From contig JAKBMM010000006.1 in assembly GCA_021831565.1 (NCBI GenBank), forward strand, positions 1 to 64,000: DNA of 64,000 nt, in the 5' to 3' direction. Below the pieces are notes generated by a model. The model worked only from the letters and a program-made list of their open reading frames with translations, made no database searches and was not told where the DNA came from. Shown here in pieces: positions 1,465 to 30,836 of this stretch; positions within the stretch are counted from its first letter, which is position 1; the number at the start of each line of letters is the position of its first letter. This DNA comes from Planctomycetota bacterium. GTDB lineage: Bacteria; Planctomycetota; Phycisphaerae; WQYP01. A program made the translations under genes and the position numbers.

Positions 1465-1680
1465 TCAGCCATATCGTGTATCAATAAGATAACCGCTACG
1501 ACCCGCGCAGCGATAACCGTGCTTGTCCTTGTGGGCGCGCAGAAAGGTGCTCGGTGCGCGCTGATAAAACCGCTTACCGCACGAGGTGCATTCGATCACA
1601 TAGGTTTCTGCCACCCCGTATTGGGTATTGCGCAATGTCGTGGGCGCTCTAATTGGACCTGTGGCAGCACAGCTCCACCC
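1465..1680 (-). pseudogene. out-of-frame zinc-ribbon tail of the AbiEii toxin
   Basis: Just past the toxin stop codon, a different minus-strand frame encodes GPIRAPTTLRNTQYG, then YVIECTSCGKRF and HKDKHGYRC. That is a CxxC...C zinc-ribbon-like segment ending in GYLIDTRYG. This kind of tail follows WYL-like domains in some proteins, so a single-base frameshift between about 1660 and 1685 has probably detached it from the toxin. No start codon or ribosome-binding site belongs to this segment itself. The junction sequence has no obvious slippery run, so mutation is more likely than programmed frameshifting, and a base-call error must also be excluded. Confidence 0.6.
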
Positions 1681-14301: not shown

Positions 14302-15840
14302 TTAAAACTTCACCTGCAGTTGCACCTGCCCGATGATGTCTTGGGTGTTGGCCTCCGATCCGATATTCGGGCTGCTGTAAGCGGCGTTTGGAAGATACGT
14401 CAGAGCGGTCTGAATCTTGGCGTTCTCGCCGAAGATGTAGTAATTCAATCCGAGGGTATATTCAAACTGGCTTTTGCCCGCGCCATCGGTGCTAAGTTGA
14501 CCGAAACGGCCGGCGATTTCCCAGCGATGCGGCACCAGGAAATAACCGGCTTCGGCGTAATAACCAAGCTGCCAGAAGCTGTTGGTCCCAAAGATAGTGT
14601 TGAGGTTGGCGGTCGTGGTGGGAGCGGCGCCACCCGGTGTGGCGTTGATCTGTTGGTAATACACGGCTCCATTAAGAGCCAGACCACGATACTTCATGTG
14701 CCCGTCGATGGTGGCGCGGTACAAACCGCCATTGACCACATAATTGGGGGACAGGAAGCCCGCGCCGCTGGGAACCGCGATTCCGGGTATCGACAGGGTA
14801 GTCTGGGGTGCGGGGAGGGAGCCGGGGGTGGAATTTTGTTCTTCATAACCGGCGGCGGCGCCGATGGCCCAGACCAGATGTTTGTGCCAGGAAACATCCG
14901 GCGAATCCGTGAAATCATTGTTGGTGCCGGCGCCGGCGAATTGCACGCGACCATAGAAGCCCATGCGGTTATCGAGATACTGCGCATGGACAACGCCCTG
15001 TGACTGCGAACCATTGTTGATCTGAAAGTCGTAGAACAACTTGTTGTGGTCCACGTTGCCCGAGAAGTCCAGGGCCAGGGAGCGGACCGGATCAAAGGGA
15101 GCTTCGGCGGCCGCGAATTCCGGGAACTCCGTGCCGGAGGAGTAATACTCGACGTGCGTGAAGGGCACCAGCATGGAACCGGCGCGTATCATCAAGGCGT
15201 TGCTGAATTTATAGCCCGCCCAGGTATCCAGAATCTGAAAGGAACCGTCCGGGCCGCCCGCGAAATCTCCAGATATTGAATAAATGATATGTGTAAAGGC
15301 ATTGCCGGTGAGAATCAAGCGGGCGCGGCGCGCGTCAAAACCGTTCACGTCGATCGGGTTGATGGCGGCGCCCGTCGGCAGACCCGTTGTGGAACTCACG
15401 TTCTGATTGTTGCCCGCTTGATCATGAGCGTAGGTGTACCGGAACTGAAGGTACCCGTTGATAAGAAGCTGGAAAGCCTTGTTCGGCGTGCGGATGAAAA
15501 AACCGTTGTCGTAGCCGGCCTGAAGCTGCGAGCTAAGGTAATGCGAGTGGGCTTTGGCGTTCGCGAGCACTTCGCGCGCGATCTGGCGAACCTGCCGGGC
15601 CTCCTGCTGGCTCATCCATTTACGATCGCTCCGGGCCTGCAAAGCGGAGACTTGGGCCTTAAGGGCCCGAATCTCCTTCTGCAATTGGGCGTTGCTCACC
15701 TTGCCGCCGGGGAGCGTGCTTGTCGTCGTGGCGACGCCGGCGCCCCAGGCCGCGCCGGCGCCGCTCGTCACCGCGAAGGCGGCGGCCAGAACAGCTTGTC
15801 GTGCCCATCTCATCGCCAATTTTTCAGCGAGGTTCCGCAT
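14302..15840 (-). CDS. phosphate-selective porin O/P family outer-membrane protein
   Basis: This is a predicted 16-strand outer-membrane porin of the OprO/OprP family; anion selectivity is assumed from the family only. An N-terminal signal peptide (residues about 12-35, ending near AWGA) is followed by a short coiled coil (NAQLQKEIRALKAQVSALQAR). The rest is rich in aromatic, alternating beta strands such as LINGYLQFRYTYAHDQ, EIAGRFGQLS and FEYTLGLNYYIFGENAKIQ, and ends with a terminal Phe (VQLQVKF) as expected for BAM-dependent assembly. AAGGAG lies eight bases before the ATG. It is monocistronic with its own terminator. It is evidence for an outer membrane. Confidence 0.88.
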   Translation of the reverse strand: MRNLAEKLAMRWARQAVLAAAFAVTSGAGAAWGAGVATTTSTLPGGKVSNAQLQKEIRALKAQVSALQARSDRKWMSQQEARQVRQIAREVLANAKAHSHYLSSQLQAGYDNGFFIRTPNKAFQLLINGYLQFRYTYAHDQAGNNQNVSSTTGLPTGAAINPIDVNGFDARRARLILTGNAFTHIIYSISGDFAGGPDGSFQILDTWAGYKFSNALMIRAGSMLVPFTHVEYYSSGTEFPEFAAAEAPFDPVRSLALDFSGNVDHNKLFYDFQINNGSQSQGVVHAQYLDNRMGFYGRVQFAGAGTNNDFTDSPDVSWHKHLVWAIGAAAGYEEQNSTPGSLPAPQTTLSIPGIAVPSGAGFLSPNYVVNGGLYRATIDGHMKYRGLALNGAVYYQQINATPGGAAPTTTANLNTIFGTNSFWQLGYYAEAGYFLVPHRWEIAGRFGQLSTDGAGKSQFEYTLGLNYYIFGENAKIQTALTYLPNAAYSSPNIGSEANTQDIIGQVQLQVKF

Positions 15841-16059
15841 GATGATTCTCCTTAAAAGCAGGTAAAAACGTTACGCAACACGTTGGCGTCATCGCCATGC
15901 AACGCGGTTGATTATTTACCGGCGGAGTTGAGAATTTATGAGGACATTGCTAAGTGTTTGATAATTCCGGCGATTGGGAGCAAAGCACGCGCATTGCCAG
16001 CGCCAGGCTCATGCCGTCTTAACATTCCATCCATGCGTCAATCGATGGAATTGGGCGGG

Positions 16060-17418
16060 TTATTTTCCAATACAGAAACTGCCGAAGATTCGCCCCAGCA
16101 CGTCGTCGGCGGTGATGGTTCCGGAAATAGAGCCCAGAGCGTCCAACGCCGCGCGGAGATCTCCGGCCACCAGTTCCGGGAAACGCTCCGCGCCGGCGTT
16201 GCGCGTCATAGCGAAGCCGCGCCGCAACGCCGCGGCGGCCTGCTCCAGCGAGTGTCGATGTCGCGCATTGAGAGTCAAAGACTCCTCGGCCAGGGAAGAT
16301 TCTTCTTTGCACCGGCGGCCGATCAGGCGTAACAAGTCGGCCAAATTTTCGCCGGTACGCGCCGAAACCGCCACGAACTCCAGCCCGGTCTCCCGCGGCG
16401 CAGCGCCAAGTCCACCCGGAATATCCATTTTGTTTCGGACCAGTATTTTCCACGCGCTGCTATCGGAGACTTCCTCCAGGAGCCGCTGCACCGAATCAGG
16501 CGCGTCCCGTTCGTCGATAACCAGCAGCACCCCGTCCGCCGCCAGCAGGGCGTGTCGTCGCGCTTGATTCATCCGAAGCGTCAGCTCCCGGCCCTGAGCC
16601 TCCACACCCGCCGCATCCAGCAAGCGAACCGGACCATCGGGTGTAGGCGCGGTCACCGCCAGAGAATCGCGGGTGGCGCCGGCTTGGGGGGAAACAATCG
16701 CCCTCTCCTGACCGCTCAGGGCGTTGAGCAACGAACTTTTCCCCACATTGGGCCGGCCCAGCAGCACCACCGTCGGCAGCGTATCAAGCGATTCCCAGCG
16801 CAGGGCATGATCGCGAAGTTCTGCGATGTCCCGGAGCATGTCCGAAATCCGCCGGCATAAATCTTCGGACCCAATAAGCGATATTTCCGGCTCATCGCTG
16901 AAATCAATTCCCGCTTCCACTAAAGCCAGTAAATCGGCCAAGCTCTCGCTCTGCCGCTTCGTCCACCGATGCAGCGCCCCTTCCCGCAGGCCGGCTGCGG
17001 CGCGCAACTGGCGGGCATTCCGCGCCGCAATGGTGGCGGCAATTCCTTCCGCCTCGGTCAGATCGCATTTCCCATTGAGAAATGCCCGGGCCGAAAATTC
17101 ACCCGCTTGCGCCTGCCGGGCGCCGGCCGCGAGCAGGGTCTGCAGAACCATATTGAGCAACGGCGGCGATCCCGGCAGATGGAGTTCGAGCATGTCCTGG
17201 CCGGTGAAGCTGCGCGGCGCACGAAAGAAAATCAGGCCCGCCGGTACCGGTGGGTGGGGAAGTAATATATCGCGCCAGTGGTGCGATATCGGTTCAAAAT
17301 CGGCGCGCAATATTTTTTGGGCCAGCAGCCAAGTCTCCGGCCCGGAAATGCGCACAATTCCACGCCATCCCCTTCCCGGTGGTGAACTGATTGCCGCGAT
17401 GGTGTCCGCCGTATTCAT
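16060..17418 (-). CDS. mnmE: tRNA uridine-5-carboxymethylaminomethyl modification GTPase
   Basis: MnmE, with MnmG, modifies the wobble uridine of certain tRNAs. The N-terminal folate-binding domain starts MNTADTIAAISSPPGRGWRGIVRISG. The G domain (about residues 210-375) carries GRPNVGKSS (G1), GATRDS (G2), DAAG (G3) and NKMD (G4). The C-terminus ends FGSFCIGK with the catalytic Cys of the FCIGK motif. Length (452) is normal. There is no Shine-Dalgarno; instead a -10-like TAAACT ends six bases before the ATG, suggesting a leaderless mRNA. mnmG is not in the window. Confidence 0.95.
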   Translation of the reverse strand: MNTADTIAAISSPPGRGWRGIVRISGPETWLLAQKILRADFEPISHHWRDILLPHPPVPAGLIFFRAPRSFTGQDMLELHLPGSPPLLNMVLQTLLAAGARQAQAGEFSARAFLNGKCDLTEAEGIAATIAARNARQLRAAAGLREGALHRWTKRQSESLADLLALVEAGIDFSDEPEISLIGSEDLCRRISDMLRDIAELRDHALRWESLDTLPTVVLLGRPNVGKSSLLNALSGQERAIVSPQAGATRDSLAVTAPTPDGPVRLLDAAGVEAQGRELTLRMNQARRHALLAADGVLLVIDERDAPDSVQRLLEEVSDSSAWKILVRNKMDIPGGLGAAPRETGLEFVAVSARTGENLADLLRLIGRRCKEESSLAEESLTLNARHRHSLEQAAAALRRGFAMTRNAGAERFPELVAGDLRAALDALGSISGTITADDVLGRIFGSFCIGK

Positions 17419-17517
17419 GCCGCCAGTTTAGAGCTTGCGGGAGATGATATCGAGATCGCTATCTTCTCACGCACGCACCGCCCCCGGCGCGCGGTGGAAA
17501 AAGCCCGTTCGGCAATG

Positions 17518-18003
17518 TCATTTTCCCGCTCCGGCAGCGCGTATGAATCTCAATGTTTGCCGCCGGTTCATGGTCCAGGCGACCCGGCGCAGCGCCCCCG
17601 TTGCACTGACGATCAGTATGGTGGGCAGAGCCAGGACTTTATACCGCCGCACCAGCCGTTTTCCGGCGGGTGTATCAACATCGGCGCGCAGCGGTATGAA
17701 ACGCCGATGCACCGCGCGGTCCACCTTTTGGTCCGACCAAACGTCGCGCTCCATCCGGCGGCACGGCGTACACCATGCGGCGTAAAAATCGATCAGAATC
17801 CGCCGCTTCTGATTTTTCGCTCGCCGCGCGGCGGTCTGAAAATCCGTCAGCCAGCCCATGCGGTCCACCGGTGATTTCCAACCCACCGTCGAACGCAACA
17901 CGGATCGCCAAAAGGAGAGGTTCGCCATGGTCAGCCCCAGGATAAACAGCGCCAGCACCACCAGGGAAACTTTCCACTTTCCGCGCCGCTGATTGGTTGA
18001 CAT
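17518..18003 (-). CDS. membrane-anchored thioredoxin-like protein
   Basis: A cytoplasmic start (MSTNQRRGKWK) and one transmembrane helix (VSLVVLALFILGLTMANLSFW) place a thioredoxin domain in the periplasm. The domain shows RILIDFYAAWCTPCRRMERDVW with the WCxPC redox motif, and LALPTILIVSATG with the cis-Pro. It resembles DsbD C-terminal domains and DUF255/TlpA-type reductases, so a role in periplasmic disulfide reduction or metal-protein maturation is likely; the partner is unknown. The ATG at 18003 has GGAG nine bases upstream. It follows the DedA-PAP2 gene by 73 bases on the same strand and may share its transcript. Confidence 0.82.
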   Translation of the reverse strand: MSTNQRRGKWKVSLVVLALFILGLTMANLSFWRSVLRSTVGWKSPVDRMGWLTDFQTAARRAKNQKRRILIDFYAAWCTPCRRMERDVWSDQKVDRAVHRRFIPLRADVDTPAGKRLVRRYKVLALPTILIVSATGALRRVAWTMNRRQTLRFIRAAGAGK

Positions 18004-18076
18004 TGGCGTATGCTCCAGTCCGACTATAATATGGATCGTACAATATCTATCTGAAACGGCATAATATAGGGAGGGG

Positions 18077-19486
18077 CTAGTCAAGTTCGCCGGGAGTCTG
18101 CTTGGCCGAAAGGCCGTGAACGGTTACCAACCGGTCGCGGCGGAACTTTTCCAGAGCCGTAAAACAAAGTGTCAGCCAAGCCAAGCCACCCGTGTAAGCG
18201 CCGAGCACGTCGCTCAGGTAATGAACTCCCAGCGCCACACGAGCCAATCCAACGAGTAAAATCAACGTCACGGATAGTAAGATTGCCAAAACGCGCCAAC
18301 GCCAGGCCTTGAACTTGCCTGCGGCGAAAAACGCCAGCAAGCCATAAAACAAAGTCGCCGCCGAGGCGTGGCCGCATGGAATACTAAAGCTGCTGAGCGC
18401 CTGAACCGCTTGGACGAAATCGGGTTGCCGGTGTTGGAAAGCACTTTTGAAAAGCAGGTTCGCCACTAACCCGCCCGGGACCGTCAAAGCCACGGCAACC
18501 AGCCGATACCATTCCTTTCGCCAGAGCAGCAACAGAGTAAAAACCAAGATGGCCGGACCAATGACGACCAGGGATCCAAAGCAACTGATCATCCGCGCCA
18601 CCGCATCTGTTGGGATGGTGGCGTGCGCTCGGAGCCACAGGCTCACGCCCCGGTCGATTTTGGTCAATGGCTCTCCCTTGAGAATATTGTTGACAATTTC
18701 TCCAAAAATCCAGGAAGCAAGAACGAGAAATGCGAATCCGAGAGTCAGATGAAGAGCGATATATTCCTGCGGTGTAAAACGTGCCGCCAGAAACTGAATT
18801 GGCCGGGCAAACCGGCGTCGAAAATCCGCCAGGCGCGGACGTTGAAGAAGAGCCTGCCAGCCGCCTCTGATTTCCGCTTCATGCCGACTCACCCACCGTC
18901 CAAGCCAGGCCAGCCCGATGACCAGAGCCAGCGCGCCGCCGGTAATCGCGCTGGCGCGGCCAATCCAATGTTCCGCCACTTTCCAGCTTTCGCCCAGGCC
19001 GTAACCCACCAGCACAAAGGTGGCGGCCCAGAGAATACAGCCCATGGTGTTGTAAAATAAAAAACGCAAATAGCGCATCTGCGACGAACCGGCCATAAAT
19101 GGCATAAGAGAGCGCAGCAGATGGAGAAAGTGGCTGGCGAAAACACTTTTCCCGCCGTGGCTCGCCAGAAATCCCTGGACGCGCTGGAGCTTCTCTTCAT
19201 TCAGCCCCGCCCAGCGTCCATGCCGCAACAGCCAGGCGGTCCCGACCCGCCGGCCTAATTCGTAGCCGATGCTGTCGCCGACGATTGCCCCCGCAGCAAC
19301 GGTGATGATCAGCGCCTTGAGATCGAACAGCCCCTGACCCGCAAGGAAGCCGCTGGCCAGCACCAACGTTTCGCCGGGCATGAATAGTCCGAGAAAAGCC
19401 TGGCATTCCAGCGCCACGACGACAAATATGATAAGATAACTTCCTTGCCCTAGGCGTTCCGTGAGCTTGACCAGATCATCTATCAT
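18077..19486 (-). CDS. DedA family-PAP2 phosphatase fusion protein
   Basis: This is an integral membrane protein. The N-terminal half (residues about 1-205) is a DedA/SNARE-associated domain, with LFMPGETLVLASGFLAGQG, GAIVGDSIGYELGRRVG and SLMPFMAGSSQMRY; DedA proteins are linked to undecaprenyl-phosphate or phospholipid translocation. The C-terminal half is PAP2-like, with KSAFQHRQPD, IPCGHAS and ARVALGVHYLSDVLG. Two PAP2 motif positions deviate: the usual KX6RP ends QP, and PSGH reads PCGH. The core His and the GxHxxxDV motif remain, so phosphatase activity is uncertain. The start is ambiguous: ATG 19486 (used) or GTG 19522; neither has a clear Shine-Dalgarno. Confidence 0.82.
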   Translation of the reverse strand: MIDDLVKLTERLGQGSYLIIFVVVALECQAFLGLFMPGETLVLASGFLAGQGLFDLKALIITVAAGAIVGDSIGYELGRRVGTAWLLRHGRWAGLNEEKLQRVQGFLASHGGKSVFASHFLHLLRSLMPFMAGSSQMRYLRFLFYNTMGCILWAATFVLVGYGLGESWKVAEHWIGRASAITGGALALVIGLAWLGRWVSRHEAEIRGGWQALLQRPRLADFRRRFARPIQFLAARFTPQEYIALHLTLGFAFLVLASWIFGEIVNNILKGEPLTKIDRGVSLWLRAHATIPTDAVARMISCFGSLVVIGPAILVFTLLLLWRKEWYRLVAVALTVPGGLVANLLFKSAFQHRQPDFVQAVQALSSFSIPCGHASAATLFYGLLAFFAAGKFKAWRWRVLAILLSVTLILLVGLARVALGVHYLSDVLGAYTGGLAWLTLCFTALEKFRRDRLVTVHGLSAKQTPGELD

Positions 19487-19659
19487 CAGATCGCCGACGC
19501 CTGCGATGGAACATGCCGCCACGAATAATGGTTTTCCATTTCATTGTGCGCCGGGTGGAGGCGCCCGTCAATCCAAGATGTATGGTGTATGGTGTGATTT
19601 TTAGAGCCGCGGGATATAAACTGGCTAAGCGGGTGGCGGACGTCTAGGATGTTCGCGAA

Positions 19660-19733
19660 GCGCCCGTAGCGCAATTGGATAGAGCACGTGGCTTCGAACC
19701 ACGGGGTTGCAGGTTCGAGTCCTGCCGGGCGCA
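19660..19733 (+). tRNA. tRNA-Arg (UCG)
   Basis: The cloverleaf is complete: acceptor GCGCCCG/CGGGCGC with A discriminator, anticodon stem CGTGG/CCACG around loop CTTCGAA (anticodon UCG, reading CGA), and T-arm GCAGG-TTCGAGT-CCTGC. No CCA is encoded. The acyltransferase ATG begins only 11 bases after the tRNA end, so the two could share a primary transcript. Confidence 0.95.
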
Positions 19734-19744
19734 GTTGGGAACCC

Positions 19745-20671
19745 ATGAAAAAGCAGTCGCCCACCCTGGATTTGACGACTTATCTGGCGGCCCGCTGGGC
19801 CGCGATGATGCTCGGCATTTTTCCGGTTAACGCCAACTTGCGCACCGCGCGGACGTTTGGTTCGCTGCTTTGGACTCTGGACGGCAAACACCGGGCCAGA
19901 GCGATCGAAAATCTCAGCCGGAGCTTTCCCGAACTGCCGCGCGACCAGATCGAAAGGATCGGACGGCAATCCATCGAGCACTTCTGTGAACTGGCGATGG
20001 ATGTGCTTTTCACCACGCGCATTATCAACGTGGAAACGTGGCACCGATACGTGCATCTGAATAACATGCGAGCAGCCCTGAACGTCGCCCTGCGGGGAGG
20101 CGGGGCCATTGTGCTCACCGGCCATTACGGCAATTGGGAGATTCTGGGCTTTACGCTCGCGACGCTGGGATTTCGCACCTACAGCATCGCCCGACCGATC
20201 GACAATCCCCACATCGATTCCTGGCTTCTGGGAGTGCGGGAAAAGCGGGGACAGATCATTTTGTCCAAGCGGGGCGTCACCACCACCGCGCAGGAAGTGC
20301 TCCAGAACAAGGGAATTCTCGGATTCATCGCCGATCAGAACGCGGGACCCAAGGGCCTGTTCGTACCGTTTTTCGGCCGATTGGCCAGCACCTACAAAAG
20401 CATCGGGTTGTTGGCGATTCAATACCGTGTGCCGGTGATAATCGGCTACGCCCGGCGGCGCGGCGACCGTTTTGAATTCGACCTGGGCGTGACGGACATC
20501 ATCCAGCCGGAAGATTGGGACGGGCAACCGGACGAGTTGCGGTATATCACCGAGCGCTATACGCGGGCGATTGAAACGTTCGTTCGCGAAGATCCGTCGC
20601 AATATCTATGGATTCACCGGCGGTGGAAGACGCGCCCGAAATGGGAAACGCCGCCGGCGTTGTCTGCATAA
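19745..20671 (+). CDS. LpxL/HtrB-family lipid acyltransferase
   Basis: This is a lysophospholipid/lipid A acyltransferase-like enzyme that would add acyl chains to a lipid A or glycolipid precursor at the inner membrane. Residues about 118-126 (VLTGHYGNWE) carry the HX4E catalytic motif, and FIADQNAGPKGLFVPFFG is the second conserved block; QYLWIHRRWKTRP near the end is also typical. At 308 residues it has normal length. The ATG at 19745 has GGGAA five bases upstream. It lies 11 bases after tRNA-Arg and is followed by dnaX. The acyl donor and substrate are unknown; lipid A is inferred from the family. Confidence 0.88.
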   Translation: MKKQSPTLDLTTYLAARWAAMMLGIFPVNANLRTARTFGSLLWTLDGKHRARAIENLSRSFPELPRDQIERIGRQSIEHFCELAMDVLFTTRIINVETWHRYVHLNNMRAALNVALRGGGAIVLTGHYGNWEILGFTLATLGFRTYSIARPIDNPHIDSWLLGVREKRGQIILSKRGVTTTAQEVLQNKGILGFIADQNAGPKGLFVPFFGRLASTYKSIGLLAIQYRVPVIIGYARRRGDRFEFDLGVTDIIQPEDWDGQPDELRYITERYTRAIETFVREDPSQYLWIHRRWKTRPKWETPPALSA

Positions 20672-20734
20672 CGCCCCGCCATCGATCACGGCGCGGCTCT
20701 GGCCGCGGGACGGACTCAAAGTTATAGTGTTCGC

Positions 20735-22495
20735 ATGTCCGATGGATACACAGTGCTGGCGCGGCGCTACCGGTCGCTGAATTTCGACGAATTGATCGGT
20801 CAGGAAGCTATCGCCCAGACGCTCAAAAACGCCGTGGCGGGGAAGCGGCTGGCCCATGCCTTTCTCTTTACCGGCACGCGGGGGGTGGGAAAAACGTCCT
20901 CGGCCCGCATTCTGGCCAAGGCGATCAACTGTCCTAAAACCAGCGCGGGAGAGCCTTGCTGTACTTGTTCGACCTGTCTGGCCATCGGTCGCGGCGAGGA
21001 TATCGATGTCATTGAAATTGATGGAGCCTCGAATAACGGCGTAGAGCAGATACGCGACCTGCGCCAGAACGCGGGCGTCATGCCGAGCCGTTCGCCCTAT
21101 AAAATTTACATCATCGACGAAGTTCACATGCTCTCAACGCCGGCGTTCAATGCCCTGCTCAAGACACTGGAGGAACCCCCGGCCCATGTAAAGTTCATCT
21201 TCGCCACCACCGACGTTCACAAGGTTCCGCCGACGATTCTGAGCCGTTGCCAGCGGTATGACTTTAAGAGCATCCCCACGGTCCGCATCGCCGGGCATTT
21301 GGGAAAAATTTGCGAACAAGAAAAGGTCCGGGCCGAACCGGCGGCCCTGCATCGTATCGCTCTGCTGGCTTTCGGATCGATGCGCGACGCGCTTTCGCTG
21401 CTGGATCGCGTCCTGTCACTGGGGGCGGGGCACATCACCGAAACGTTGCTGGATGAATTGCTCGGTAAGCCATCCGTGGCGGCTCTGGCCGGCCTGGTGG
21501 GGGCCATGGCCGATGGCGACGCGGCCCTGGCTCTGCGGCTGATACACGCCATGCTCGCCGAGGGCATGGCTCCCGAACAGGCGTTGGCGGAGTTGATGGA
21601 ATTCTTTCGCAATCTGATGATTCTCCGCGTGTGCGGCGACAAGACCGATCTGCTGGACGTGCCGGCGGAATGGCGCGGGATGCTCTCGAAACTGGCCCCG
21701 CACTTTGACCCGCCCACGCTGGTGCATCACATCGCCCTGGGTGATCAGACGCTGCGCTCCCTGCGCGGCAGCACCATGCAGCGTCCGCTTTTCGACGCCC
21801 TGATTGTTCGCCTGGCCCTCTCGCCACAGTTCACCTCGCTGCGGGAAACATTGGAAAATATTCCACCGGCGGGCGAACCGATCGCCCCGCAAAAAAAAAA
21901 TGAATCCGTGATGGCCCGGCCGAAAGCAATCCCCGCCACGCCCGCCCCGGCGTTTTCCAGCGCAGTGGCGCCGCCCCCGGTTTACCAACCGTCCCGCGAA
22001 GAGCCGCCGACGCCGCTTCACGAGTCGGTTGAGGTACAAGCCCCCGGCGGCCATTTGGAAACGCTTTGGGAAAAGGTGGAGAAACATTTACTGGAAAACA
22101 AAGGTGCCGTCATTGTAAAGATGCTCGGCGGGCGTGCCCGGTTGAGCCATCTGGATGCCGCCGCCGGGACAGCTCAGCTCGCAGTGCCGGCTCGGCTGGT
22201 AAACATGGGCGCCGGCGAGAAATATCGGCAATCACTGGAGGCGGCATTGGGGGCTGTTGTGGGCCGACCGATTCGCCTGCGGATCATTCCGGCGCCTGGC
22301 GAGCAAGGCCGCCCGGCGGAAATGGAATCGCCGCCAAACACCGCGGCTCCTGTTCCCGTGGCGCGCCGGGTGGCGCCGCCGGAATTGATTCGCCGCGCCC
22401 AGGCCATTCCCACCGTGCGGAGGTTGATCGATCAATTCGGCGCCCAGGTGGTGGATGTCGAAAGTCCGGCTGCTGATCCGCCGGGTGAATCCTGA
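20735..22495 (+). CDS. dnaX: DNA polymerase III subunit gamma/tau
   Basis: This is the clamp-loader ATPase. Residues about 10-370 hold the AAA+ domains: GTRGVGKTSSAR (Walker A), the zinc cysteines in CPKTSAGEPCCTCSTC, IIDEVHML (Walker B) and LSRCQRYDF (sensor 1). A Pro-rich linker and a C-terminal tau region follow, for 586 residues in all. In the linker lies a run of ten A (21891-21900). A +1A or -1 shift gives TGA at 21901 and the other frame gives TGA at 21909, so slippage would yield a 389-residue gamma form containing just domains I-III. TATAGT ends six bases before the ATG with no Shine-Dalgarno, suggesting a leaderless start. recR follows. Confidence 0.95.
   Translation: MSDGYTVLARRYRSLNFDELIGQEAIAQTLKNAVAGKRLAHAFLFTGTRGVGKTSSARILAKAINCPKTSAGEPCCTCSTCLAIGRGEDIDVIEIDGASNNGVEQIRDLRQNAGVMPSRSPYKIYIIDEVHMLSTPAFNALLKTLEEPPAHVKFIFATTDVHKVPPTILSRCQRYDFKSIPTVRIAGHLGKICEQEKVRAEPAALHRIALLAFGSMRDALSLLDRVLSLGAGHITETLLDELLGKPSVAALAGLVGAMADGDAALALRLIHAMLAEGMAPEQALAELMEFFRNLMILRVCGDKTDLLDVPAEWRGMLSKLAPHFDPPTLVHHIALGDQTLRSLRGSTMQRPLFDALIVRLALSPQFTSLRETLENIPPAGEPIAPQKKNESVMARPKAIPATPAPAFSSAVAPPPVYQPSREEPPTPLHESVEVQAPGGHLETLWEKVEKHLLENKGAVIVKMLGGRARLSHLDAAAGTAQLAVPARLVNMGAGEKYRQSLEAALGAVVGRPIRLRIIPAPGEQGRPAEMESPPNTAAPVPVARRVAPPELIRRAQAIPTVRRLIDQFGAQVVDVESPAADPPGES
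21891..21911 (+). promoter_or_regulatory. candidate slippage site in dnaX (A10 run with two out-of-frame stops)
   Basis: Ten consecutive A are read CAA AAA AAA AAT in frame 0. Frame -1 meets TGA at 21901-21903; frame +1 meets TGA at 21909-21911. The position is directly after clamp-loader domain III. Confidence 0.6.
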
Positions 22496-22596
22496 TAGGC
22501 CGCGGAACGGCGCGATCGCCCGTCTTTCCCAGGCGGTCGAAAAAACCGTGAACACCCGCGGCCGTTGTTCCGGCAAATGTGAAGAAAGCTCGGTTT

Positions 22597-23226
22597 ATGG
22601 GCGACTCCAAGGCGGGTTACAGTACTCTGGTACGGCGGCTCATGGAACTGTTCGGACGCCTGCCGGGAGTTGGCGCCCGCTCGGCCGAACGAATGGTGTT
22701 TCACATTCTCAAGAGCAGCCCGGAAGAAGCTCTGGCTCTGGCGGACGCCATCCGAGCCGTTAAGGAGCGGGTGCGTCACTGCCAAATATGCTTCCATCTG
22801 ACGGAGAACGATCCCTGTGAAATTTGCGCCGATGCCACGCGCGATCATGGCGTGATTTGCGTGGTGGAGCAGTCCAAGGATCTTTTCCAGATCGAAGCGA
22901 CGGGCGCATACCACGGCGTATATCACGTTCTACTGGGTCGCCTGGCGCCACTGGAGGGAATCGGGCCGGAAAATCTCACGGTCGACGCCCTGCTGGAGCG
23001 GCTGCGGCGGCGCGATGAAAGGGGCGAACCGGCGGCGCGGGAAGTCATCCTGGCGACCAACCCCACCATGGAAGGCGACGGCACCGCGCTGTACCTGCAA
23101 AGCCGGCTGCGGGAAACCGGCGTTACCGTCACGCGCCTGGCGCGCGGTCTGCCCGCGGGGGCGCAGATCGAACACTCCAACAAAGCCATTCTCTCCGACG
23201 CTTTGACTTGGCGCACGCGGATGTAA
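22597..23226 (+). CDS. recR: recombination protein RecR
   Basis: RecR works with RecO/RecF to load RecA at gaps. The product shows an N-terminal helix-hairpin-helix (LFGRLPGVGARSAERMVFHIL), a four-Cys zinc finger (CQICFHLTENDPCEIC) and a Toprim domain (VICVVEQSKDL, then EVILATNPTMEGDGTALYL). Length is about 209 residues, close to the usual 200. The ATG at 22597 is preferred; a GTG at 22579 is also possible and neither ribosome-binding site is strong. It follows dnaX by about 100 bases. The ybaB gene that often sits between dnaX and recR is absent here. Confidence 0.94.
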   Translation: MGDSKAGYSTLVRRLMELFGRLPGVGARSAERMVFHILKSSPEEALALADAIRAVKERVRHCQICFHLTENDPCEICADATRDHGVICVVEQSKDLFQIEATGAYHGVYHVLLGRLAPLEGIGPENLTVDALLERLRRRDERGEPAAREVILATNPTMEGDGTALYLQSRLRETGVTVTRLARGLPAGAQIEHSNKAILSDALTWRTRM

Positions 23227-23319
23227 TTTATATAATGTCACATAATAGTAGTTTTATATATATGTCGTGCGTGTTTCTTCGCTTTCCGCCGGCGCTCGGG
23301 AGGCGGACCAGGCCCGGGA

Positions 23320-24477
23320 TCATTTTTTTAACTCCGGATCATGATAATCAGGATCCAGCAGGTATACCGGATACGCCACCAGTTCCCGCAACAGCGCGTA
23401 GGGATTGGTCTGGCGCCATTGGCGGGAAACGCTCGGCGCCGTCCAGGCGCGCACGCCGAGTTGGGCGAACGCCAGCCGTATTCGCGGAAGGTGATAGTCC
23501 GAACTCACCGCCACCACCGTTTTCCAGCGGCGCCGGCGCATCAGGTTCACGGCGTCGTACACGCTGGTGCGGGTATTATCGCCGTGAAAATCCTTGATCA
23601 GATTCCGGGCTGGAACTCCCGCGGCCCGGCACAGGTTGTACATCGCCAGGGTTTCATTTTGCCGCGGATCGCCGGCGCCATGGGGCGCTCTTCCACTGAG
23701 CATCAGGTAGCGCACCCGCCGGCGTTCATAGAGCCCAATGGCCGCCAGCGTGCGATTCTCCATGGTTCGCCCGCAAACGTCGTGCGGCAGCACGGCGTTA
23801 CCGAAAACCACCGCCAGGTCGGCCCGCATGTTCTTCGGCGGCGGGTTGGACCGGAAGGCAAAGCCAAATATCCACACCATCAGCAGGATGACGCATCCCT
23901 CCGCCGCCTGATCATACCAGGCGTGTGGTGGTATCAACCGGCAGTACTTGACCGGCGGCGGCAGCAGCGATTCCGGCTTCGCCGCGAGTATTCGCCCCGG
24001 CCATTGGCCCATCCATGCCGCCAGAACCAGCAGCACCGGTAAACACATCGGTATGAAGAACGCCAGGTCGCCGTCCCGTTGGTTCCATATTTCGTAATAG
24101 GTAACCGTGTTCAGAAACAATACCAGCATGATCAACCATGACGGCAGCAGCAGCAGGCGGTTCCATCGCAATCGCCGCCGCAGCCGCTCCGGCGTGATCG
24201 GCCCGCGCCGGGGAAAATCCACGCGCCGCGCCACCGCCAGCGCCATCAGCGACGCCAGCCACAATCCCGGCAGGAAAGTCTGCATCGACCCGCCGGCGAA
24301 ACGCAGATCGATCCAACGCCAGCTCTGTCCGGTCAGGATACTTACACCCGCGCCCCAGTAAACCAATTCGTCAAGAAGGCGCAGCGCGAAACCCGCCTTC
24401 GGCCAGGCGGCGGAAGGGACCGAACCGCCGGCCTGGTGGGAGGCGGCCCGGCTCGTATGGATTCTTTTCATATCCAT
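23320..24477 (-). CDS. YdcF/ElyC-family (DUF218) membrane protein
   Basis: The N-terminal 210 residues contain about four transmembrane helices (e.g. MQTFLPGLWLASLMALAVA and LLLPSWLIMLVLFL). The C-terminal part is a DUF218 domain: DLAVVFGNAV, GRTMENRTLAAIGLYERRRVRYLMLSGR, NETLAMYNLCRAAGVP, NTRTSVYDAV and VSSDYHLPRIRLAFAQLGV. Related proteins such as SanA and ElyC affect envelope integrity and peptidoglycan or undecaprenyl metabolism, but the reaction is unknown. The start is placed at an ATG (24477) shortly after a TATAAT; a second ATG lies six bases on, and a longer upstream frame seems untranslated. The gene is divergent from the potassium channel. Confidence 0.78.
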   Translation of the reverse strand: MDMKRIHTSRAASHQAGGSVPSAAWPKAGFALRLLDELVYWGAGVSILTGQSWRWIDLRFAGGSMQTFLPGLWLASLMALAVARRVDFPRRGPITPERLRRRLRWNRLLLLPSWLIMLVLFLNTVTYYEIWNQRDGDLAFFIPMCLPVLLVLAAWMGQWPGRILAAKPESLLPPPVKYCRLIPPHAWYDQAAEGCVILLMVWIFGFAFRSNPPPKNMRADLAVVFGNAVLPHDVCGRTMENRTLAAIGLYERRRVRYLMLSGRAPHGAGDPRQNETLAMYNLCRAAGVPARNLIKDFHGDNTRTSVYDAVNLMRRRRWKTVVAVSSDYHLPRIRLAFAQLGVRAWTAPSVSRQWRQTNPYALLRELVAYPVYLLDPDYHDPELKK

Positions 24478-24760
24478 AGGCTTGCTTCCATTATACAATA
24501 TATGAAATATGACCGCCGGAGTCGTGCGGGGATCATAGCCGGACGATTCTTCATTCCTTCTACTATCGCATGGACGGTCGGGGGGTTCAAACATCGTATG
24601 GCGTCGGCGCTTCGCCACATGCTCGCTAGTGCTCTGTGAGCCATCCGCAACGGCTGGCGGGATTGGTCCGGCGTCATCCCCGCCGGGGGGTACGTGGCGA
24701 TATCCGGCGGTTTAAAATACGATGTTTTCTGAAATTTAAGCTCCTTCGGAAAGGTTCTAA

Positions 24761-26008
24761 ATGCCGCGCGTATTCTCAAGCCTGCCGTTTTCTTTTCACC
24801 GGCGGTGGCGGCAATGGGCCCGGCAAACGCGGCACAGAGTGTATTGGGATAGCTGGTTTCCGCACGTTGTGGTGGCGGTTGCGGTTGGTCTTTTGGGGCT
24901 TGCCAATCTACTGGACGGCATCATGCGGGGCGCGCCGGGGTTTCCCGCCCTTGTGCATTTCAAGCCCATGTTGCCTATCGGGCAGGTACTGAAATTGCGC
25001 GGCCTGGCTGGTATTCCACAAGCTGCGGCGGGCGCGGTTATTCTGGTGATGTCTTTGGGATTGGCGTTTCGCTCGCGATTCGCCTGGGCGGTCGCTTTGC
25101 TGTTATCCGCGGCGACACTGGCTTTGATTCTGCATCAAAGCAATTTGCGGTGGGGGACGCTCACCGTTTTCAACGCGTTGCTGCTGATTGTGCTGTTGGT
25201 ATTTCACCGTTCGTTTTCGCGTTCCAGTCTGGCCGCGGGCACCCTTTTCTCCGTGGTCAGCGTGCTTCTGCTGCTGGGGTATTCAGTTTTCGGTTCTTAT
25301 GTGCTGGGCCAGGATTTTTCGCCGCACATCAATACCCTGGCAACCGCTCTGTATTTTTCCGTGGTCACGTTATCCACCGTCGGCTATGGAGACATTGTTC
25401 CCAAGAGCGATGACGCCCGCTTTTTTGTGATATCCGTTATTATTCTGGGCATCACCGTATTTGCAACTTCCATCTCGGCTATTATTGTGCCGCTGGTGAA
25501 TAATCGTATGCAACGCCTCCTGGCCGGAGAAAAAAAACGTATGAAGCAGGATCATTACATTATCATCGGGGACAACGCGCTGGCGCACAACACCTATCGG
25601 GAACTTAAGGCCAGGCATCTGCCGGTGGCGGTGATTGTTTCGACCAAGCCGGAAAATCTGTGGATGCAAGACGGTGATTGGATCGTTGGCGATGCTTCGG
25701 ATATCGAAGTGCTGCGCCAGGCCGGCGGCGAACGGGCGTTGGCCATCCTGGCGCTTCGTGCCGATGATAGTGAAAACGCCTTTATCGTGATGGCGGCCAA
25801 GGAATTGGGAGGCAAGGCCCGCACCGTGGCCGCGGTGAAAAACAGCAAGAATTTCCCGCGTGTGCATCGCGTCGGGCCGGATCTGATCATTGCCCCGGAT
25901 GTGCTTGGCGGCGAATTGCTGGCGATGGCGCTGAGCGGCGAAGAGCTCAACAGCGATCATATCCTCCGGAAATTGTTTATCCCGCATGATGCTCAGAAAG
26001 CCAAATAA
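24761..26008 (+). CDS. kch: Kch-type potassium channel with RCK (TrkA-N) domain
   Basis: This is a predicted voltage-gated-like K+ channel. The N-terminal 215 residues hold several transmembrane helices; the pore region reads ATALYFSVVTLSTVGYGDIVPKSD with the TVGYGD selectivity filter. After the inner helix a cytoplasmic RCK domain follows: DHYIIIGDNALAHNTYRELKARHLPVAVI, VGDASDIEVLRQAG, LALRADDSENAFIVMAAKELG. Length (415) and domain order match E. coli Kch (about 417). GGAAAGG lies six bases before the ATG. The gene is divergent from the DUF218 gene and convergent with the PEGA lipoprotein gene. No further operon partner. Confidence 0.88.
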   Translation: MPRVFSSLPFSFHRRWRQWARQTRHRVYWDSWFPHVVVAVAVGLLGLANLLDGIMRGAPGFPALVHFKPMLPIGQVLKLRGLAGIPQAAAGAVILVMSLGLAFRSRFAWAVALLLSAATLALILHQSNLRWGTLTVFNALLLIVLLVFHRSFSRSSLAAGTLFSVVSVLLLLGYSVFGSYVLGQDFSPHINTLATALYFSVVTLSTVGYGDIVPKSDDARFFVISVIILGITVFATSISAIIVPLVNNRMQRLLAGEKKRMKQDHYIIIGDNALAHNTYRELKARHLPVAVIVSTKPENLWMQDGDWIVGDASDIEVLRQAGGERALAILALRADDSENAFIVMAAKELGGKARTVAAVKNSKNFPRVHRVGPDLIIAPDVLGGELLAMALSGEELNSDHILRKLFIPHDAQKAK

Positions 26009-26055
26009 ACCCCGCCGCGAAGCGACGTCCTCGTGCTCTCTTGGGAGATGGATTC

Positions 26056-26526
26056 TTATTCGCCGCCACTTTTCGGAAGCTGTGCTTTAAGCCGCCGGGC
26101 ATTCTGGATCAGCTGGTCGCTGTTTTCCCGCGGAACCGGCGGTACGGTGAAAGCCCAAATCTCGTGGTCCCGGAATTGTATCGGTAGAAGGCTCGCGACC
26201 AGATCCATGCCGTACCACTCGAACCAGGGCCGGACCGTGGTGCGATGGGTATGCAGGTAATAGTAGTCGTACTTGGGCTTCTGCAGTGTTCCGATGTTCT
26301 TTCGACCCCGCAGGCGCACGCCATACGTGCCGTACCATTTGAAATCAATCGTGCAGGGAGAACGGCCCTTTTCCACATCGTTCAAATACACCAGTGAGCC
26401 GGGAGGATCGGTCACCACGGTGATGGACCGTTCCACGCAACCGCCAACGGCTGAAAACAGCGCCAGCCCCAGAAATATTCCCGCCGATCGAACCGCGCGC
26501 CGTACCGGAAGATTCGCAACATTCAT
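26056..26526 (-). CDS. PEGA-domain lipoprotein
   Basis: The N-terminus (residues 1-30) is a lipoprotein signal ending in a lipobox-like SAVGGC with Cys at about residue 30. A PEGA domain follows: RSITVVTDPPGSLVYLNDVEKGRSPCTIDFKWYGTYGVRLRGR. This type of beta domain is common in surface and envelope proteins. The rest is rich in aromatic residues and unassigned. TAGAAT lies six bases before the ATG and no Shine-Dalgarno is visible, suggesting a leaderless mRNA. It converges on the kch gene with a 47-bp gap and is divergent from trpF with only about 110 bp between starts. Confidence 0.78.
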   Translation of the reverse strand: MNVANLPVRRAVRSAGIFLGLALFSAVGGCVERSITVVTDPPGSLVYLNDVEKGRSPCTIDFKWYGTYGVRLRGRKNIGTLQKPKYDYYYLHTHRTTVRPWFEWYGMDLVASLLPIQFRDHEIWAFTVPPVPRENSDQLIQNARRLKAQLPKSGGE

Positions 26527-26634
26527 ATCGGGATTCTATCCTCGTCTCTTTGGCCAGACCAGTTCCCGACCTCGGATAAGTGGCGCGGGGGAGGCAGCGC
26601 CCCGCCGCCGGCCAATGGAGTTACAATATCGCCC

Positions 26635-27306
26635 ATGGAACGCACGCGTGTGAAAATCTGCGGTATCACCCGTCCCCAGGACGCCGTGCTCGCCGCCGCG
26701 GCCGGCGCCGATGCGATCGGTCTGAATTTCGTCGGCGGTCCGCGTAAAATCGACATCAAAACCGCCGACGCAATTCTCCGGGTTCTGCCGCCGCTGGTTG
26801 GTACGGTGGCCTTGATCAACATGGATCCCGAACAGCGCGGCGATGATTTTTATACGCTCCGCGAGCGTCTGACGATTCGCTATTTTCAGCTTTACGGCTC
26901 TTGGGACGAGATCGGGTTTAGCGACGGCATCATCGCCGCCACCGGACTTTGGCCGGTGGTGCGCGTGGCTGCCAAAGCGGATGTGATGAACCTGGCAATC
27001 CACGTGCGGCAGTGGAATTTTCCGCCCGCGGCAATTGTGCTAGACGCTTTTTCTCCGGAAAAACAGGGTGGCGCCGGTATGGCGTTTGATTGGAATTGGA
27101 TCGCCGAAGCCCGTGCCGCGGGCATCCTGGACCAACTACCGCCGCTGGTGCTGGGCGGAGGGTTGAATCCTGATAATGTCGGGGAAGCCATTCGCATTGC
27201 CCGCCCTTGGGCGGTGGATGTATCCAGCGGCGTCGAAATACCATCCCAGCCGGGGAAAAAGGATCCGGTTCGCTTGCAAGCGTTCATGCAGGCGGTGGTG
27301 GCGTAG
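26635..27306 (+). CDS. trpF: phosphoribosylanthranilate isomerase
   Basis: TrpF converts N-(5-phosphoribosyl)anthranilate to CdRP in tryptophan synthesis. The TIM barrel shows the landmarks RVKICGITRPQDAVLAAAAGADAIGLNF (catalytic Cys in KICGIT), YFQLYG, AIVLDAFSPEKQGGAGMAFDW (catalytic Asp), LVLGGGLNPDNVGEAI and AVDVSSGVE. The 223-residue size is normal. TACAAT ends seven bases before the ATG and there is no Shine-Dalgarno, so it may be leaderless. It is not with other trp genes. Its 3' end overlaps the convergent cobA-hemD gene by 23 bases. Confidence 0.94.
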   Translation: MERTRVKICGITRPQDAVLAAAAGADAIGLNFVGGPRKIDIKTADAILRVLPPLVGTVALINMDPEQRGDDFYTLRERLTIRYFQLYGSWDEIGFSDGIIAATGLWPVVRVAAKADVMNLAIHVRQWNFPPAAIVLDAFSPEKQGGAGMAFDWNWIAEARAAGILDQLPPLVLGGGLNPDNVGEAIRIARPWAVDVSSGVEIPSQPGKKDPVRLQAFMQAVVA

Positions 27307-28906
27307 GCGATCCTGCCTGAACCGTTAGCGCCTGAATCATGCCGGGAATGTCATGCCGTGCCGCTTCCGCCGTGGGCGGCCAGCCGAGCCGGCGTAGCGC
27401 CGCCGAAGTGATCGGGCCGATCGAAAGCCGGTTGGTGCGTGCGACCCGGTCCCTTAGTTCCGGCGGGAGCAGGGCGTGCAGATTAGTTGCCGTCGAAGCG
27501 CTGGTGAAGGTAATCCAGTCGACCATGCCGTTCCGGAGCGCCTCAATCGCCTCGGCGCAGAGCGTTTTAGGCGCGACGGTTTGGTAAATCGCCATATCTT
27601 CCACCACGGCGCCGGCACGGATCAATTCCCGCCGCAACTCTCCGCGGGCGATATCGGCGCGAAGCAGGAGGAATTGTTGTCCCTTCAGGTCACCTTTGTC
27701 TCCCAACCGCTCAATCAATTCAGCAGCAAGTTTTTCGCCTATGAATTCTTCGGGTACCAAGTCCGCCGTGATGCCGACGGTGCGCAATACCTCGGCGGTG
27801 GCTGGTCCGATGGCTGCTACGCGGCGGGGGAAAGCCCGCGCATCCAAGTGAAGCTCTCCCATGCGCCGCCATGCGGCTTCCACGCCATTGGGACTGGAGA
27901 AGACTACGCAGTCATATCGGTTCAGTTGCGCCAGCGCCTGATCGATGGCGAATTCGTCGGCTGCGGGGGCCAGTTCTATGACGGGCGATTCAATGACGTT
28001 GGCGCCCAAGTCCGCAAGCCGCGTCGATAACCGCCCGGCTTGCGGGCGGGTACGCGTTACCAGCACGGTTTTACCGAAGAGCGGGCGGCTTTCAAACCAG
28101 TTGAGTTCTGCCCGCAGATTCACAACCTGCCCGATGATGGTAATCGCCGGGGCCTGGATTCCGGCTTTTCGGGCCGCCTCGGCAAGACCGGCCAGCGTGC
28201 TGACAATCGTCCGCTGGCGGGGGTAAGTGGCCCACTGAATCACCGCCGCCGGCATATCCGCAGCCATACCCGCGGCATGGAGCCGGCGGGTGATTTCCGG
28301 CAGGGCCTGGACGCCCATGTAAAACACCAGTGTTCCGCCAAGGGCCGCCAGGGATTCATAGTTTAAGCCGGAATCCGGGATCTCTTCATGATCGTACGCG
28401 GCCTGCTTCCGATGGCCGGTGATAAAAGTCACCGTGCGGGTAAAATCGCGGTGGGTGACGGGGATACCGGCATACGCGGGTCCGGCAATTCCCGCCGTAA
28501 TTCCGGGAATAACGGCAAAATGAATGCCCTGCGTCCGCAGGTATTGGGCCTCTTCACCCCCGCGCCCGAACACGTAAGGATCGCCGCCCTTGAGCCGGAC
28601 CACCACGCGTTCCGTTCGAGCAATGTCACCGGCTGTTTGCCGGGCCTTTTGCACCAGCAGAGCGTTGATCCGGTCCTGGTCCAGCGTGTGCCGCGCGGCT
28701 GATTTTCCGGCGTATATCTTCTCGGTGTCCGGTGGACACAAATCCAGCAGGGCGGGATTGACCAGGGCGTCATAAACCACAACCGCCGCCCGCTTAAGAA
28801 CCGCCGCGCCGGCTTGCGTGAGCAAACCGGGATCGCCGGCGCCGCCGCCGACAAGATAAACCATGGGGCGGGTCCCGGCGGCGGTTGATTTCGTCTTGCG
28901 CGACAT
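27284..28906 (-). CDS. cobA-hemD: uroporphyrinogen-III C-methyltransferase / uroporphyrinogen-III synthase fusion
   Basis: This is a two-domain enzyme. The N-terminal half (about residues 12-255) is a SAM-dependent uroporphyrinogen-III methyltransferase: VYLVGGGAGDPGLLTQAG, VVVYDALVNPALLDLCP, VRLKGGDPYVFGRGGEEA, GIPVTHRD. The C-terminal half is a HemD-type synthase: TVLVTRTRPQAGRLSTRLADLGANVIESPVIELAP, VVFSSPNGVEAAW, and ITFTSASTATNLHALL. It would close the tetrapyrrole ring and direct it to siroheme or cobalamin. TACAAT stands seven bases before ATG 28906 with no Shine-Dalgarno; ATG 28915 is an alternative. It converges on trpF with a 23-bp overlap. Confidence 0.92.
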   Translation of the reverse strand: MSRKTKSTAAGTRPMVYLVGGGAGDPGLLTQAGAAVLKRAAVVVYDALVNPALLDLCPPDTEKIYAGKSAARHTLDQDRINALLVQKARQTAGDIARTERVVVRLKGGDPYVFGRGGEEAQYLRTQGIHFAVIPGITAGIAGPAYAGIPVTHRDFTRTVTFITGHRKQAAYDHEEIPDSGLNYESLAALGGTLVFYMGVQALPEITRRLHAAGMAADMPAAVIQWATYPRQRTIVSTLAGLAEAARKAGIQAPAITIIGQVVNLRAELNWFESRPLFGKTVLVTRTRPQAGRLSTRLADLGANVIESPVIELAPAADEFAIDQALAQLNRYDCVVFSSPNGVEAAWRRMGELHLDARAFPRRVAAIGPATAEVLRTVGITADLVPEEFIGEKLAAELIERLGDKGDLKGQQFLLLRADIARGELRRELIRAGAVVEDMAIYQTVAPKTLCAEAIEALRNGMVDWITFTSASTATNLHALLPPELRDRVARTNRLSIGPITSAALRRLGWPPTAEAARHDIPGMIQALTVQAGSPTPPPPA

Positions 28907-28997
28907 GCGAGGCATTGTATAACAATTACAAAAATTCAACCTTTGGCCGACTATGGTCGATAGATATAACGGTAGTCGTAGTTTCCTCCCATAATCT

Positions 28998-29040
28998 GGG
29001 CCGCCTGTTGTGCGTTGCAGTGGGCGGCCCCGTTTTTTTT
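28998..29040 (+). terminator. orphan plus-strand intrinsic terminator
   Basis: GGGCCGCC (28998-29005), a 17-base loop, GGCGGCCC (29023-29030), C, G, then eight T (29033-29040). It points along the plus strand although the flanking genes are both minus-strand, so it could end a small plus-strand RNA or block antisense transcription. The T-run touches the stop codon of the metallo-hydrolase. Confidence 0.6.
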
Positions 29041-29722
29041 AGAGTAGATCGAAGCTTTCGCCCGGCTGGAGGATCGCCGGCTTGATGTCCTTCTGCCGCA
29101 AAGACCGGCCAAACGCCGCGGCATCCTGCCTGATCGGCGGGAAAGTGTTGTAATGGATCGGCAACACACAGCGGGCCTGGAGCATTTCCGCGGCCAGCAG
29201 GGCATGGTCCGGCCCCATGGTGAAGCAATCGCCGATGGGCAGGCAGGCCAGATCAATTTTCCATAACCGACCGATTAAAGCCATGTCGCCGAACAGAGCC
29301 GTGTCGCCGGCGAAATAGATGTTCCGTTCGCCGATCTGCACCATCCAGCCCCCCGGCACACCACCGGGCGTTCCGTCCTGAAACGTACTGGTATGAATGG
29401 CAAAAGTGAGCGCGGCCCGCCCGAAAGGAAAATTCATTCCTCCGCCGATGTTCATCCCCGCGGTTTTCAGACCCTGCCTGGAATAATACTGGCTGATTTC
29501 AAAATTGGCGGCGATGGTGGCACCGGTCCGTTTGGCGATCCGCACCGTGTCGTCCACGTGGTCAAAATGCGCGTGGCTCAGAAGAATGTATTGTGGATTT
29601 ACCTGGTCTGATTTCACATCCGCCAACGGATTCTGATCGTAAAAGGGATCAAGTTGCACGCGCTGCCCGCCGGAATGTATCTCCAGACACGCATGGCCGT
29701 GATAGATGATTTTAACCGCCAT
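29039..29722 (-). CDS. UPF0173 metal-dependent hydrolase
   Basis: This is a metallo-beta-lactamase-fold hydrolase of the UPF0173 family, substrate unknown. Residues about 1-60 read MAVKIIYHGHACLEIHSGG, LDPFYDQNPLA and YILLSHAHFDHVDDTV, with the zinc ligands in HAHFDH. Further ligands occur in FAGDTALFGDM and LPIHYNTFPP. Length (227) matches the family. GGAGG precedes the ATG by five bases. It lies between cobA-hemD and cysK on the same strand, but gaps of over 100 bp on each side make a common operon unsure. Confidence 0.9.
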   Translation of the reverse strand: MAVKIIYHGHACLEIHSGGQRVQLDPFYDQNPLADVKSDQVNPQYILLSHAHFDHVDDTVRIAKRTGATIAANFEISQYYSRQGLKTAGMNIGGGMNFPFGRAALTFAIHTSTFQDGTPGGVPGGWMVQIGERNIYFAGDTALFGDMALIGRLWKIDLACLPIGDCFTMGPDHALLAAEMLQARCVLPIHYNTFPPIRQDAAAFGRSLRQKDIKPAILQPGESFDLL

Positions 29723-29882
29723 CAGTCGCCTCCGAATATTAACCTATCCAGATAACTAAGGCTACGGCGCTGCTTTCCCGCGTTCTTGGGTTTTGGTGCA
29801 TCGGTTTCGTGTTTATCCTGTCGGCCCCGCCATGGTCATGATCTTCTCTTGGATGGAATGCCCGACTCCCGTTTAGCGCCGA

Positions 29883-30836
29883 TCAGACGTCAAGTCCTTC
29901 AAACATGGCGGTGCTGATGTAGCGTTCGCCCGTCGAGGCCATGACGGTCACGATGATTTTCCCCTTCATTTCCGGGCGTGCCGCCACTTGCGCCGCCGCC
30001 CACATGTTGGCCCCGGAACTGATGCCCGCGAGAATTCCCTCTTTCTTCGCCAGCCTTTTGGCCCATTCAAACGCATCCTCGTTGCTAACCTGGATCACTT
30101 CGTCCACCAGGTTTACGTAAAGATTCTTCGGGATAAATCCCGCTCCCGCCCCCTGGATTTTGTGCGGCCCCGGCTTGAGCGGCTGATTCGCCTTGCATTG
30201 CGTGATGACGGGCGAACCGCTCGGCTCAACGGCAATCGCCTTGAAATTGGGATTGCGTTTCTTGATCACGCCGGCCACTCCGCTGATGGTGCCTCCGGTA
30301 CCCACTGCGGCGACGAGACAATCCACTTTTCCGTCGGTGTCATTCCAGATTTCCTCGGCCGTGGTGGTCCTGTGAATTTCCACATTGGCGGGATTGTCGA
30401 ACTGTTTGGCGACGAGCGCATTTTTGTCCATCGTCGCCGCTTCGTTGCAGCGACGGATGGCGCCCGGCATACCCTCCGCAGCCGGGGTTAGCACCAGGTC
30501 CGCGCCTAAAATTCGCAGCAATTTACGCCGCTCCAGCGACATGCTCTCCGGCATGTACAGGGTCAGTTTGTAACCTTTGGCCGCGCATACATACGCCAGG
30601 GCAATACCGGTGTTGCCGCTGGTGGCTTCCATGATGTGCGTGTTCTTGTTGATTTGTCCTTCGCGCTCGGCGGCTTCAATCATCGCCACGCCGATACGGT
30701 CTTTCACGCTGCCGAGTGGATTGAAAAACTCGCATTTGGCGTAGACCGTGGCCTGCCCGGGCGGTATCAGCCGGTTGATTTTCACGAGGGGAGTGTTGCC
30801 CATTGTTTTGGTGATGTCGGAATAAAGTTTGGACAT
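29883..30836 (-). CDS. cysK: cysteine synthase A (O-acetylserine sulfhydrylase)
   Basis: This PLP enzyme makes cysteine from O-acetylserine and sulfide. NPLGSVKDRIGVAMI contains the PLP lysine (about residue 43); MEATSGNTGIALAYV is the substrate-binding TSGNTG loop; VAAVGTGGTISGV binds the PLP phosphate; AGISSGANMWAA follows. At 317 residues the length is typical. AAGGAG precedes the ATG, and a TTGACA-17-TAGTCT promoter lies about 30 bases upstream. It is a single gene facing away from sucA; the partner cysE is not in the window. Confidence 0.95.
   Translation of the reverse strand: MSKLYSDITKTMGNTPLVKINRLIPPGQATVYAKCEFFNPLGSVKDRIGVAMIEAAEREGQINKNTHIMEATSGNTGIALAYVCAAKGYKLTLYMPESMSLERRKLLRILGADLVLTPAAEGMPGAIRRCNEAATMDKNALVAKQFDNPANVEIHRTTTAEEIWNDTDGKVDCLVAAVGTGGTISGVAGVIKKRNPNFKAIAVEPSGSPVITQCKANQPLKPGPHKIQGAGAGFIPKNLYVNLVDEVIQVSNEDAFEWAKRLAKKEGILAGISSGANMWAAAQVAARPEMKGKIIVTVMASTGERYISTAMFEGLDV

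Follow-up and report, generated by a model that had tools for sequence, protein, structure and literature searches.

The dnaX gene within the 64-kb stretch of DNA analyzed here (64,000 nucleotides, in the following called the window) carries a run of ten A, which very probably serves as a site of transcriptional slippage comparable to that of Thermus, by which one gene would supply both the gamma (389 aa) and the tau subunit (586 aa) of the clamp loader. In the mechanism proposed, RNA polymerase would stutter at the run and release mRNAs with ten A together with a sizeable fraction in which the run is longer or shorter by at least one A. Messages with ten A (or ten ±3) would be translated into full-length tau, and all others would run into a TGA no more than three codons beyond the A stretch and thereby yield gamma, the motor part of the clamp loader lacking the tau tail. 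We infer slippage itself, the ratio of the two products, and the entry of both into the clamp loader. This reading is favored by features directly seen in the genes: the anatomy of the site, a conserved run length of nine to ten A lying in three codon phases, closure of both other frames, a repeatedly reversed polarity, and the absence of a hairpin and of other ribosomal stimulators.

The encoded protein matched the dnaX profile TIGR02397 (E 3.7e-124), the E. coli gamma/tau chains of the PDB (E 3e-73), and the Pfam families AAA/delta2, lid, and domain III, which together span residues 22-366. The run starts in codon 386, is flanked by C at 21890 and T at 21901, and is read in frame as CAA AAA AAA AAT GAA (QKKNE). 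A first-pass annotation of the same DNA had placed the ten A at 21891-21900 and two TGA codons at 21901 (extra A or -1 shift) and 21909 (lost A or +1 shift), and direct reading bears out all of these positions (Table 1). It had further located the run directly after domain III of the clamp loader; the run does lie in the linker following this domain, but not directly after it, as the Pfam match ends at residue 366, about 20 residues earlier. Within the window, no other run of nine or more A or T exists, and a pattern search of the 2.81-Mb genome returned four A10/T10 runs, the one in dnaX among them.

Table 1. Features of the window dnaX gene and its putative slippage cassette (window positions).
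Feature	Position	Strand	Basis
dnaX, gene for gamma/tau of the clamp loader; tau (586 aa) in the zero frame	20735..22495	+	ORF, TIGR02397, Pfam, PDB
Part common to gamma and tau: domains I-III and linker start (residues 1-385 and first base of codon 386)	20735..21890	+	Pfam 22-366
Putative A10 slippage run, in frame CAA AAA AAA AAT	21891..21900	+	direct reading; class conservation
TGA met after gain of one A or a -1 shift; predicted gamma of 389 aa ending PQKKK	21901..21903	+	direct reading; family alignment
TGA met after loss of one A or a +1 shift; predicted product of 391 aa with C-terminus PQKKMNP	21909..21911	+	direct reading; third-frame closure conserved
Tau-only tail: remaining linker and C-terminal domains	21901..22495	+	zero frame open to 22495; tau-tail profile

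Considered for the window gene alone, a run of at least ten A in the linker has a probability of 0.08 (protein fixed, gene-specific synonymous codons), and codon shuffles closed both frames this near with p 0.019. As a single sequence, the gene makes a modest and only suggestive case for a slippage cassette. Such values leave some room for a homopolymer that arose by chance or simply encodes lysines, yields no dual product, and is followed by near stops coincidentally. The first-pass view that stops so close are hard to put down to chance is thus weaker than stated as far as one sequence is concerned (p about 0.02), and holds once relatives are considered.

We extended the analysis to dnaX from 110 genomes of the window's class, the window's own included, of which 109 genes were assessable. 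Without any choice for the presence of a run, nine or ten A were found in 92 of the 109 genes (~85%), or in 71 of 84 genera if counted per genus; these counts refer to related genes and hence do not represent independent trials. In detail, run lengths were distributed as A10 in 77, A9 in 15, A8 in one, and A7 in four genes, with no run in 12 and eleven or more A in none. A synonymous-codon model predicted runs of at least ten in 6.7 of 75 one-ORF relatives compared with 75 found, these relatives having been picked for the run. When ten genes of the window's family were aligned, the run and the abutting TGA proved invariant at a mean column identity of 55%, and in 21 of the 77 genomes with an A10 dnaX run it is the only A10 of the genome. 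Most of the relatives are represented by draft assemblies, many of which probably derive from metagenomes, and long homopolymers can be misread in such data; the recurrence of ten A in 77 genomes from many assemblies, however, speaks against an error. The same constancy bears on the idea of a phase-variable switch, in which replication slippage would let lineages differ in run length and hence in the form of DnaX produced. A10 runs are mutable in general, as such a switch would need, yet ten A are present in all eight genomes of genus g3 and nine to ten across the class, and, tau being expected to be essential, a lineage fixed in a form lacking it should not be viable. We therefore regard phase variation as extremely unlikely.

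Outside the class, nine or more A were found in 10 of 59 dnaX genes sampled within the phylum, and scattered cases occur in records titled Bacteroidetes, Ignavibacteria, Spirochaetales, and Clostridia. Within the class, ~8% of the members have no run and a single open frame (e.g., L022 from the window's own family), so that a run-based route to gamma is not universal. The relatives with one open frame and a linker without a homopolymer of at least nine are L022, L031, L035, L046, L060, L062, L065, L067, and L070; a search for slip motifs in the genes lacking the A run turned up no stretch of nine or more identical bases. If these relatives make gamma at all, it may arise by proteolysis, as in Caulobacter. 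The tau frame of run-less genes (e.g., L060, L070, L108, L111, and L112) was left out of the evaluation, and the genes of genus g14 were re-read separately.

The position of the run relative to the reading frame indicates that selection acts on the nucleotides rather than on the encoded lysines. The run is found in all three codon phases (0/1/2 in 5/58/29 genes), and as a result the encoded residues differ between genes (QKKN, KKKT, AKKK, EKKN) while the run length stays. In addition, lysine is encoded at the run by AAA 161 times and by AAG 21 times, compared with 756 and 829 times elsewhere in these genes, an excess of AAA which in part follows from how the run is defined. The comparison of linkers suggested by the first-pass annotation yielded a conserved run together with conserved near stops: both non-tau frames are closed within 10 codons in 75 of 90 A9/A10 genes (83%) versus 8% in shuffles, and no more than 16 genes were closed in any of 1000 shuffles. 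Closure of both frames is what is needed if mRNAs gain and also lose A; -1 ribosomal shifting would require the closure of one frame only.

The run also occurs with reversed polarity. In 15 genes of the class, three of which belong to the window's family, the zero frame ends just past the run and encodes gamma; for tau, one A has to be gained (12 genes) or lost (L028, L029, and L059). All 15 out-of-frame tails match a profile built from in-frame tau tails (E 1.7e-35 to 1.5e-6), by which their homology to tau is recognized. Provided that these 15 relatives depend on tau, they must change frame at the run. On a maximum-likelihood tree of the part common to gamma and tau, we counted at least nine changes of polarity and ten of run presence, numbers that are approximate as the tree came from a quick search and has several open forks. 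For a chance or lysine-encoding homopolymer, neither the class-wide conservation of its length in three phases nor the closure of both frames would be expected, nor the 15 genes in which tau is impossible without a frame change, making this explanation very unlikely. Together with the run and near stops in relatives, the use of all phases and the polarity reversals support the first-pass proposal that a 389-residue gamma and a 586-residue tau would be made by slippage.

That proposal had left open whether polymerase or ribosome slips, and the comparative data favor a transcriptional mechanism. E. coli dnaX is recoded by ribosomal frameshifting on A AAA AAG with the aid of a Shine-Dalgarno-like stimulator and a hairpin. 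By analogy, programmed -1 frameshifting on A AAA AAA might produce gamma in the window from uniform mRNA. The run indeed contains this heptamer, on which ribosomes can shift -1, which is a point against slippage; it is available in frame, the -1 stop follows immediately, gamma would end about one codon past the slip site as in E. coli, and two-ORF genes of the class with A7 or GGA AAA plus a downstream hairpin have that look. However, seven A would suffice for a heptamer, yet ten are kept. Closure is as sharp in the +1 as in the -1 frame, and the three relatives L028, L029, and L059 need a +1 change to reach tau. The elements of the E. coli signal were not detected: the heptamer A AAA AAG is absent in the window, where A AAA AAA lies inside the A10 and is followed by T; a hairpin following the run is lacking in the A9/A10 genes (mean z -0.05, n=90; window z +0.7); no clear Shine-Dalgarno-like stimulator is present upstream in the window (cgaaccgatcgccccgc), and internal sites of this type, found in 17 of 92 A9/A10 genes versus 11 expected, are only mildly above background and show no clear enrichment. 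An Rfam scan of 15000-30000 returned a single tRNA and nothing else. Considering all of this, ribosomal frameshifting at the window site appears unlikely.

Some relatives, a minority, show a layout resembling that of E. coli, with A7 or A4 and a hairpin, which in these genes serves tau. Twelve two-ORF genes have short sites, being A7 or A8 or, in genus g14, GGA AAA GCC TGA. Strong structure right past the stop was computed for 8 of these 12 (60- or 40-nt z below -2), and their +1 (third) frame is open for at least 32 codons in 12 of 12. In the A10 two-ORF genes, the third frame is closed within 13 codons in 14 of 15 (Fisher 7e-7 versus short-site genes with relatedness ignored), a contrast which was spotted during data reading rather than planned and in which the twelve short-site genes are mutually related. 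Because of the downstream structure in most of them and the open third frame, the short-site genes fit ribosomal frameshifting. The simplest account would be that short-site lineages use -1 ribosomal frameshifting for tau and that A9/A10 genes use transcriptional slippage.

Genus g14 (L108, L111, L112, and L212) has lost the A run and kept two ORFs, the first dnaX ORF ending at residues 377-380. Its site is followed by a strong hairpin in most of the genes, and the short -1-frame tail holds a conserved DHALVRRARELF-like motif. A ribosomal frameshift signal is likely here, its A AAA site being unusually short.

Slippage in dnaX as such is of a kind already known from Thermus. In Thermus thermophilus it occurs on nine A (Larsen et al. 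2000, as cited in PMC1088944 and PMC5009743). As far as described in these sources, the window gene agrees with that system in having a coding-strand run of at least nine A past the motor domains I-III and ahead of the tau tail, tau as one ORF, near stops in both other frames, and gamma as the short product. It differs from T. thermophilus, with its nine A at seven eighths of the gene, by having ten A at two thirds. Unlike in Thermus, the arrangement is kept across a class and in both polarities, and slippage is putative here. A second point of comparison is the survey of Antonov et al. 2013 (PMC3711429), which reports 17 two-ORF dnaX genes, nine of them with ten A, in which the zero frame encodes gamma and tau arises by recoding. 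The 15 class relatives with gamma in the zero frame resemble this type. The window does not belong to it, as tau is one ORF that needs no recoding, a type which a search for disrupted frames misses; a further difference from the 2013 survey is that both directions of change are found here, alternating within one class. In the accessible literature, no link between dnaX slippage and planctomycetes was found beyond the table of that survey (PMC3711429). Class-wide conservation, repeated reversal, and the contrast with ribosomal-type genes were not found in the literature either, which is weak evidence considering that most subscription papers and a key supplement were out of reach.

Taken over the class, we consider it probable that dnaX recoding represents an ancestral system in which slippage and frameshifting, as well as tau and gamma in frame, are freely exchangeable, with selection keeping both products while the polarity flips repeatedly and, in some lineages, recoding switches between the transcriptional and the ribosomal level. 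The in vivo importance of gamma has long been disputed in E. coli (PMC5009743), and a two-product layout that has survived an apparent change of mechanism as well as at least nine reversals of polarity provides strong comparative evidence of selection for both. In parallel, the class offers many natural A9/A10 cassettes in which tau is reached either with or without a slip, plus matched relatives of ribosomal type, for measuring the determinants of slippage efficiency. In terms of annotation, ~14% of the dnaX genes (15/109) and the short-site two-ORF genes resemble frameshifted pseudogenes and are probably intact.

Some further observations concern other loci and the gene neighborhood. The other three A10/T10 runs of the genome were read as well; one lies very near the start of an apparent ileS gene (MAVHDEKKNPAANG...; L004 at ~1501-1510, minus strand, G000:C77:8271-8280). 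In a motif scan of relatives, the start of ileS was recognized in the window genome and its congener only, the latter showing A8 at this position. The ybaB/ebfC gene is found near dnaX in many relatives; PF02575 is present in most of the window's family, with no match in the window genome or the congener (G000, G001). In the window, recR directly follows dnaX, the intervening stretch being 22495-22579.
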